This document shows positions 21,501 through 54,042 of a stretch of DNA of 64,000 nt, in pieces. This stretch comes from Haliotis asinina. Its lineage: Eukaryota > Mollusca > Gastropoda > Lepetellida > Haliotidae. Both the position numbers and the translations under genes were made by a program. The stretch is from assembly GCF_037392515.1 (NCBI RefSeq), contig NC_090281.1:49142645-49206644 (forward strand). Reading direction: 5' to 3'. Numbering within the stretch: the stretch's first letter is position 1; each line of letters opens with the position of its first letter. The notes below the pieces were generated by a model. The model did not search any database and had not been told where the DNA came from. It saw only the letters and a program-made list of their open reading frames with translations.

Positions 21501-24500
21501 TCGGTGTGTACTTAGCTGTCCAAACGTGTTAAGTAAGTAAGAACTACAACATGGATGAGAGTGCAGCAATAGGCTGACATGTCAGCACTGTTGTCATGGC
21601 AACTGCTTCTGTCCAGGCCACTGAGTGAGGGTAAGCCCCTGAAGGAGAAGTTTGATGCCATCTTTGCCTCGACCAGATACACCAAGGTGCTGGAGACCAT
21701 TCGGAAACTCAAACAAGAGCAGGTCAGTTATACATGTATTTTCTGTACATTTCTTTTTCCAAAACGTTATGGAGGAGCACATGTTCATGTTGATCCATCA
21801 AGTACCAGAGTGATAGTGTTTAGAGAGCATGGAGAGTTGGTCAGGATAACAGCCACTGGTCTGGCTGATGCAGAACTGGCCCATCAACACACCTCTCAGC
21901 AACCCACTAACTCATCTACTTGATCCCCAACCCTCCCTGTCACTGACTGCCGTGTGTTTACAGGACGGACACATCAAGCTGTACAAGCAGGACCTGAAGT
22001 ACCTGAAGGAACACAAGGACAAGGCAACACAGGTAGGACACGGTTAGGTTGGGTAACAACTTCAAACAGTTCTTGCCTGGGAAGTAATAGTCAAGGCCAG
22101 CTGTTCCTCATCCCAGATCTGCCAGCCAGGATGGCAGGATGAAGAGGTGAGGCCATGTGAAAAAAGAGGGGCAGGATGAAGAGGTGGGGAAGGGTGTAGC
22201 ACTGTGAAGAGATAGGACAGTGTAACAGGAATGAAGGTGTGTGAAGAGGTGGGTGAGGGGGAAGCAGTATGGAGAAGTAGAAGAATGCGAAGGAGTGAGG
22301 CAGTGTGAATGGGTGGTGCAGGGTAAAGCAGTGTGAAGAGATGGAGCGTGAAGAGGTGGGGGCAATGTGAAGGGTTTAGGCTGGGTGAAGGGTTGTGGCA
22401 GTGGGAAGGACAGTTGCAGCTGTCGTGACGACATGCTGCTTCCATGTGTTACAGCTGAAGTGAAGCCATGTTCCCTCCATGTGTTATACCTGTTGTGAAA
22501 ACATGTTCCCACCATGTGTTACAGCTGAAGTGAAAACATGTTCCCACCATGTGTTACAGCTGAAGTGAAAACATGTTCCCTCCATGTGTTACAACTGTAG
22601 AGAAAACATGTTCCCTCCATGTGTTACAACTGTAGAGAAAACATGTTCCCTCCATGTGTTACAACTGTAGAGAAAACATGTTCCCTCCATGTGTTACAAC
22701 TGTAGAGAAAACATGTTCCCACCATGTGTTACAGCTGAAGTGAAAACATGTTCCCTCCATGTGTTATACCTGTTGTGAAAACATGTTCCCACCATGTATT
22801 ACAACTGAAGTGAAAACATGTTCCCACCATGTGTTACAACTGTAGAGAAAACATGTTCCCTCCATGTGTTACAACTGTAGAGAAAACATGTTCCCTCCAT
22901 GTGTTACAACTGTAGAGAAAACATGTTCCCTCCATGTGTCCATGTGTTACAACTGTAGAGAAAACATGTTCCCTCCATGTGTTACAACTGTAGAGAAAAC
23001 ATGTTCCCTCCATGTGTTACAACTGTAGAGAAAACATGTTCCCACCATGTGTTACAGCTGAAGTGAAAACATGTTCCCTCCATGTGTTACAACTGTAGAG
23101 AAAACATGTTCCCACCATGTGTTACAACTGTAGAGAAAACATGTTCCCTCCATGTGTTACAGCTGAAGTGAAAACATGTTCCCTCCATGTGTTACAACTG
23201 TAGAGAAAACATGTTCCCTCCATGTGTTACAGCTGAAGTGAAAACATGTTCCCTCCATGTGCAGGGATTTACGTTTAGTCCTGTGTTTGAGGGTCCCTGA
23301 GACTCATACTCTTAAAGTTTTCCTTATCCTAACTCATGCTTATTAAGCTTGTCTCCTTCTCTCCAAACATAGTGGAACATAAAACACCCTCCCTTGAGCC
23401 TTCGTACTTTGGTGCTCCAACAGTCACATGACATGCCATGCTCTTGGCTCTCTCCGAATACTTGCCCGACACCCAAATTGCAGGGAAATACAGAGTATCA
23501 TGAGAGGGGAGGACGGGAGGGTTGACCTCATGAGTCAGAATAAGTATAAAATATCAATTTAATCCCTTTGTTTGTGGTGAATGCGTGTCCCCTCAATGTG
23601 TTACAGCTGCAGTCAGACCTGGAGGAACTCAATAGCAAGTCTGCAGCATCCAAGGAGTCTGTGGCCAAGATAACTGAGCAGCTTGTTCCCATAGAGGTCA
23701 GTACAGCCTTCTGTTCAGTACATTATAGCTGAAATTGTTAACGACAATCGTCATTGTTGAACTGTTATATGTAAAGGTAAACGGTTTTCACGTCCTTTAC
23801 TGGTCATATGGTGACTGAATTGCAGTCATTGTTTTACTGTTTGTCATGGTTGACAACTCGATTGCACCTGGTCATGTGGCTTTGTTGATTAGTCTTTTGT
23901 CATGCACCTCCCTTAAACACATTCTGGTGTCCCCAGTCAGGATATTGCTGGAATATTGCTAAAAGCGGCATAAAACTCACTCACTCACTTGAACGCATTC
24001 AGTACATTTGGTGTCTCATTAGGCAAGTGAAATTGTTTGAAACATTGGTGAAAGGGTACCCGGTAGGATTAGATTGTCATGTGGCTATTATTAGTGTAAA
24101 CTTCATGGACTATACTGACAGGTTAGGTTGTCAGTACTAGTTTCTAAGCCACTGTATTTAAGTTGAGTATTACTGACTGGGTCATTATGTACAATACTTA
24201 TTCACTATGCCAGTTTATTGTGGAGATGTCACATGTGACAGTTTAAAGCTGAAGGTCTTCATCTAAATGTCATAACCAGGCGATAAATGTTGATAAAAAT
24301 CAGATGTAAGTAGTAAATTTTATGTTCATTTTCTCCTTTTTTTCAGGAGCGTCTTGATCAAATACAACAGAATGCAAATGAGATCTTCAAAGTGAAGACT
24401 AAAATTGGTACGTTCAGATTTATTAATTTGATAAACAAGTAGAATAGGTAGTTTTCTCAGAGCAGAACCAGAATGTTTTCCATTAGACATGATTTTCTAT

Positions 24501-54042: not shown

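Follow-up and report, generated by a model that had tools for sequence, protein, structure and literature searches.

Minisatellites over exon-intron junctions of the RAD50 gene of Haliotis asinina, probable mirage-type arrays

Introduction

In lancelets, minisatellite-like tandem duplications of exon/intron boundaries, termed mirages, have been described in Adh3 and in the globin genes BflGb6 and BflGb9 (PMC3087553), and troponin C and PGBD5 were added to the genes that carry them (PMC3902484). According to the accessible portions of these papers, mirage units measure 10–160 bp (PMC3087553) and the arrays contain many AG and GT signals, reportedly without interference in splicing (PMC3087553, PMC3902484). 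In abalone, intron 3 of a TSSK1-like gene is reported to hold a polymorphic 27-bp minisatellite, and the available part of its description contains nothing on junctions (PMC6905558). Likewise, the available parts of the reports on sea bream myostatin-2 (PMC3045353), earthworm metallothionein (PMC12783039) and human internal tandem repeats (PMC2812944) describe no junction-spanning arrays.

Intron gain by tandem duplication resembles the structures treated here in that splice signals are copied in tandem; there a new intron arises from exon sequence, whereas in RAD50 existing introns were lengthened. The gene 6-16 is said to carry tandem repeats at a donor, each of them donor-like, whose copies provide splice donors. 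It is alike in its tandem donor-site repeats and differs in that the RAD50 copies are predicted decoys only.

Here we describe junction-derived arrays in RAD50 within a window of 64,000 nucleotides of Haliotis asinina (NC_090281.1, positions 49,142,645 to 49,206,644), which adds this gene to a structure described for a few lancelet genes.

RAD50 gene model and inventory of tandem arrays

All 38 introns of the RAD50 model (Table 1) were of the GT-AG type and the exons formed a single open frame of 1,312 residues. Compared with a human RAD50 query sequence, the identity was 44.6% over 1,311 aligned positions, and the PDB RAD50 chain 9q9h_A matched across residues 1–1309 (E 0). The intron numbering of an initial annotation of this DNA was reproduced by the model and proved correct.

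TRF gave 44 rows in the window. After overlapping rows of the same array had been merged, and the GT dinucleotide run of intron 33 and the arrays outside RAD50 had been excluded, 25 intronic RAD50 arrays remained, three of which lay within mobile-element sequence. At least one array was present in 22 of the 38 introns. Together the arrays made up 7,807 of the 30,748 intron bases (25%), compared to 5% of the flanks. Seven arrays were assigned to a junction, with units of 34, 35, 41–42, 43, 43, 44 and 71 bp. Copies were counted by wrap-around alignment, the true copy included.

Table 1. Position and composition of RAD50, its junction-derived arrays and related features in the window.
Feature	Position	Strand	Unit (bp)	Copies	Description
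RAD50 coding region	18584..53270	+			tblastn-guided model, splice sites refined; 39 exons, 1312 aa
Intron 7 array	22431..23261	+	35	24	TRF and alignment; match to acceptor plus first nt of exon 8
True acceptor of intron 7 and exon 8 start (-21 to +7)	23586..23613	+			score 41 to 23142-23169
Intron 10 degenerate array	24741..25151	+	~42		starts near exon 10 donor; TRF part 24848-24965
Exon 15 donor, tandem copies at junction	27068..27137	+		2	wrap-around alignment; GT in 2/2
Intron 15 main array	27731..28051	+	43	7	10-12 nt of exon end and donor; GT in 4/7
Intron 23 array	35392..36095	+	71	10	copy 1 is exon 23 end (38 nt) and donor; GT in 9/10
Possible lone degenerate copy of exon 25 donor	37906..37927	+			score 29; at end of 50-bp array in intron 25; weak
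Intron 32 array	45550..46244	+	34	21	starts at donor, ~2 nt of exon 32; GT in 18/21
SINE-like insertion in intron 32	46554..46833	+			just before exon 33; 13-bp direct repeats 46554-46566 and 46821-46833, read from sequence
Intron 36 array	49746..51457	+	44	40	copy 1 is exon 36 end (32 nt) and donor; GT in 33/40
Intron 38 array	52455..52925	+	43	11	copy 1 is exon 38 end (31 nt) and donor

Match of repeat units to the junctions of their own introns

Each repeat unit was aligned to the donor and the acceptor of its own intron (±35 nt) and the score was compared with those of 2,550–2,566 other unmasked RAD50 windows. Six units scored higher at their own junction than at every null window. These were the unit of intron 7 at the acceptor (35, null maximum 25) and, at the donor, those of introns 15 (90 vs 23), 23 (100 vs 37), 32 (46 vs 27), 36 (124 vs 21) and 38 (122 vs 44). 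The TRF arrays of introns 23, 32, 36 and 38 themselves cross the junction and their scores are therefore partly positional. The unit of intron 10 reached a score of 30 at the donor (P 0.0035, 2,554 windows), above all 69 other junction windows. The initial annotation had derived the units of introns 15, 23, 32, 36 and 38 from the end of the upstream exon and/or its 5' splice site, had named intron 10 as a probable sixth case with what proved to be degenerate donor copies, and had read the unit of intron 7 as the 3' splice site and start of exon 8; all of this agreed with the scores.

In a second approach each junction (±25) was searched in the remainder of its own intron at a score cut-off of 24, with swapped introns as the null. 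Seven of the 38 donors were matched (introns 10, 15, 23, 25, 32, 36 and 38), where swapped introns predict 0.38, and three of the 38 acceptors (introns 7, 28 and 32), where 0.57 are predicted. The acceptor match of intron 7 corresponded to its array. That of intron 32 came from the target-site duplication of the SINE-like insertion: the 13-bp repeats duplicate the acceptor, which is therefore present twice, once upstream of the element and once next to exon 33. Thirteen further matches to this element were found in the window. The intron 28 match was weak, with a score of 25 inside the chance range, and was rejected. The donor match of intron 25 stood at the end of an array whose own unit showed no match to the junctions.

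The exon part of the units was then compared alone, by aligning the last 40 nt of the upstream exon to the unit next to the other 37 exon ends. The result was unambiguous for introns 23, 36 and 38, with scores of 61, 59 and 63, where no competing exon end exceeded 18. It was marginal for intron 15 (20, a 10-nt match, vs 19), and no exon part beyond chance was detected by this alignment in intron 10 (18 vs 20) or intron 32 (8 vs 14). In the displayed part of the 9q9h_A comparison, the residues encoded by the end of exon 23 are conserved with human RAD50, and exons 36 and 38 showed 75% and 91% identity to human RAD50 (tblastn). As the exon ends copied in introns 23, 36 and 38 encode conserved residues, we concluded that the copying ran from the exon into the intron.

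When the units of introns 7, 15, 23, 29, 32, 36 and 38 were searched with blastn-short (E 0.01) against the window outside their own intron, no copy of any of them was found. Thus, these arrays represent separate local events, as had been proposed from their differing sequences.

The arrays differed in how far the splice signals were preserved. The unit of intron 7 contains only 6–7 nt of exon, and among 23 scored copies AG was present in 7, AA in 14 and AC in 2. The decayed array of intron 10 comprised up to 10 degenerate copies by extension without a null, with GT in one of 10; an additional donor-like copy lay at 25133-25151. In intron 15, approx. 590 bp of other DNA (27138-27730) separate the two copies at the junction from the main array. 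This segment looks like a later insertion; no exact inverted matches of 10–14 nt were detected among its outermost 60 nt. By eye, the copies of intron 36 resembled each other more closely next to the exon and diverged more towards the opposite end of the array. Intron 38 differed from introns 23, 32 and 36 in that the donor GT was gone from nearly all copies, replaced in most cases by AT. By alignment GT was found in the true copy alone (1/11) and AT in 8, while donor scoring added a copy at 52619 (CTT/gtgaga).

Further candidates were less convincing. An acceptor match in intron 24 (score 46) was due to array bases inside the compared window, and without them the score fell to 13, below the highest value elsewhere (24). 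The acceptor of intron 12, matched by eye, failed the alignment against the null windows. Intron 31 (87 bp) was kept as a weak case with a donor P of 0.018. Two of the eight arrays with at least 7 copies, those of introns 27 and 29, had no match to their own junctions.

Comparison with lancelet mirages

As far as mirages are described in the accessible parts of PMC3087553 and PMC3902484, the RAD50 arrays share with them the tandem boundary copies, on the donor or the acceptor side, and the many AG/GT copies. Boundary-spanning copies were clear in introns 23, 36 and 38, and were present in intron 15 with a 10-nt exon part and in intron 7 on the acceptor side; in intron 32 they run from the donor with ~2 nt of exon, and in intron 10 they are degenerate. 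The RAD50 units of 34–71 bp fall within the length range given for mirages in the available text, and many but not all copies kept AG or GT. The lancelet mirages are the same kind of structure (PMC3087553, PMC3902484, accessible parts), and the initial annotation, which knew of no described class, was wrong on this point.

Length and somatic instability are counted among the mirage traits, whereas the RAD50 arrays are known here from one sequence. The present case is RAD50, with seven introns of one gene and up to 40 copies.

We consider it probable that the RAD50 arrays are mirage-type minisatellites that arose by local tandem duplication over junctions, were tolerated and then expanded. A short stretch of 34–71 bp including the splice site would be duplicated in tandem by a local error of replication or repair, and the additional copy would land on the intron side. 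The spliceosome presumably stays with the exon-adjacent site, that is the first donor or the last acceptor. Since this site would still be used, the duplication may be nearly neutral, and repeat instability could subsequently enlarge the array to some 7–40 copies. Such a process would offer a route for intron lengthening and might also yield new introns.

Frequency of junction arrays compared with chance

To compare the number of junction arrays with chance, one seed per array was placed uniformly in array-collapsed introns, either in its own intron or in any intron. Junction labels were taken from the null-window test and the alignments, and intron 15 was counted via its junction copies. Seven of 25 arrays spanned a junction; the expected number was 3.37 with seeds kept in their own intron (P 0.037) and 2.79 with seeds in any intron (P 0.014). 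Six spanned a donor (expected 1.68 or 1.39, P 0.005 or 0.002). For the eight arrays with at least 7 copies the excess was larger, with six junction-spanning arrays where 1.49 or 0.93 were expected (P 0.0004 or 0.0001), and such arrays were more frequent among the large than the remaining ones (6/8 vs 1/17, Fisher P 0.001). When at least 8 nt of exon were required, which removed introns 7 and 32, 5/25 arrays remained (expected 2.81 or 2.34, P 0.13 or 0.07); the same count for donors only gave P 0.011 or 0.005, and for large arrays 4/8 (P 0.020 or 0.004). Leaving out intron 10 gave a count of 6/25 (P 0.10 or 0.05), and leaving out the three mobile-element arrays gave 7/22 (P 0.033 or 0.009).

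When the collapsed introns were scored junction by junction, repeats were found at 7 of 38 donors with intron 25 included (expected 2.66, P 0.015), or at 6 of 38 without it (P 0.047), and at 1 of 38 acceptors. For all junctions together the number was 8/76 (expected 5.31, P 0.16), or 7/76 with TRF arrays only (P 0.28), and the imbalance between donors and acceptors had a P of 0.06. Among interior 50-bp windows, 411 of 1,095 had a second copy in their own intron at a score of 24. In raw bases junctions were thus less often repeated than the intron interior, because arrays occupy much of the introns.

These counts bear on the possibility that arrays simply arise anywhere in introns and that some cover a junction because introns are short. 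About 3 of 25 arrays would then span a junction, the stricter counts were not significant for junctions overall, and arrays are common both by intron and by interior window. Yet seven were seen, the excess sat in the largest arrays and it persisted at donors with 8 nt of exon. Taken together, pure chance is possible though not the probable origin. The initial annotation had held that random slippage would not pick junctions this often; for the total, the large arrays and the donors this found support, while the stricter counts and the count over all junctions did not support it. We concluded that long arrays and donors show a clear excess in RAD50, which is not firm for junctions overall, in one gene that was chosen post hoc.

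The junction excess of the large arrays (6/8) goes beyond uniform seeding. Tolerance alone is insufficient for it, and it counts against a mirage-type origin by tolerated duplication. Junctions could instead be true hot spots, at which transcription- or splicing-linked breaks, e.g. by R-loops over G-rich exon ends and donors, raise the rate of duplication. In line with this, six donors and only one acceptor were represented among the junction arrays, the sense-strand GC skew was positive in six of these seven arrays (17 of all 25, with 1 zero and 7 negative), and arrays were denser in the RAD50 introns than in the flanks. Against it, the skew of the junction array of intron 7 was negative and the highest skew (+0.83) occurred in an array without junction match; introns 27 and 29 carry long arrays at a distance from their junctions; the excess over all junctions, the count with 8 nt of exon (P 0.07–0.13) and the donor-acceptor imbalance were not significant; and the case is a single gene examined post hoc. 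We therefore regard hot spots as rather unlikely. It is similarly doubtful that, in animals whose genes are rich in introns, transcription- or splicing-linked damage makes junctions, and donors in particular, a general source of long minisatellites, with lancelet mirages as one example.

Decoy donors and splicing

Under the mirage-type origin that we prefer, the extra splice sites would be ignored, and we scored them with a donor matrix made from the 38 RAD50 donors. In the six array regions of introns 10, 15, 23, 32, 36 and 38, 100 GT sites scored at least as high as the weakest true donor (3, 16, 24, 21, 34 and 2, respectively). In intron 36, 29 other GT sites reached at least the score of the true donor, and in intron 32 two did; there TAG/gtgagt was present in 12 copies. 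Only 3 of the 100 decoys were in frame and free of stops, all of them in intron 23. The remaining 97 would cause a frameshift or run into a stop, so that a working RAD50 protein needs the exon-adjacent donor. The exon-adjacent splice sites were assumed to be those in use, given that the modelled exons form one open reading frame. Exon definition may account for the choice of these sites.

The arrays might alternatively be functional, with repeated donors that buffer or regulate RAD50 splicing. The high-scoring sites retained in intron 36 and the TAG/gtgagt copies of intron 32 would fit such a role. The disruption of the frame by nearly all decoys and the loss of almost all decoy GTs in intron 38 speak against it, as do the donor positions of the intron 36 unit, which were no better conserved than the rest (+1 0.85 and +2 0.95; exon part 0.90, intron part 0.95). 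We find a functional role highly improbable. Since the decoys were mostly gone in intron 38 and mostly retained in introns 36, 32 and 23, they gave no consistent indication of being under selection. Intron 36 constitutes a natural test of donor choice by the spliceosome, with 29 downstream sites of equal or higher score in the same intron.

Other sequences in the window

A Pfam search of ten open frames, one of them in intron 22 and the other nine in the flanks of RAD50, returned nothing at 0.01. In intron 22, open frames at 33440-34493 resemble a mobile-element recombinase by eye; the frame at 33813-34490 was without Pfam match at this threshold. Two more long arrays were located outside RAD50, at 5145-5544 (40 bp x 10, 98% matches) and 6600-7331 (35 bp x 21).
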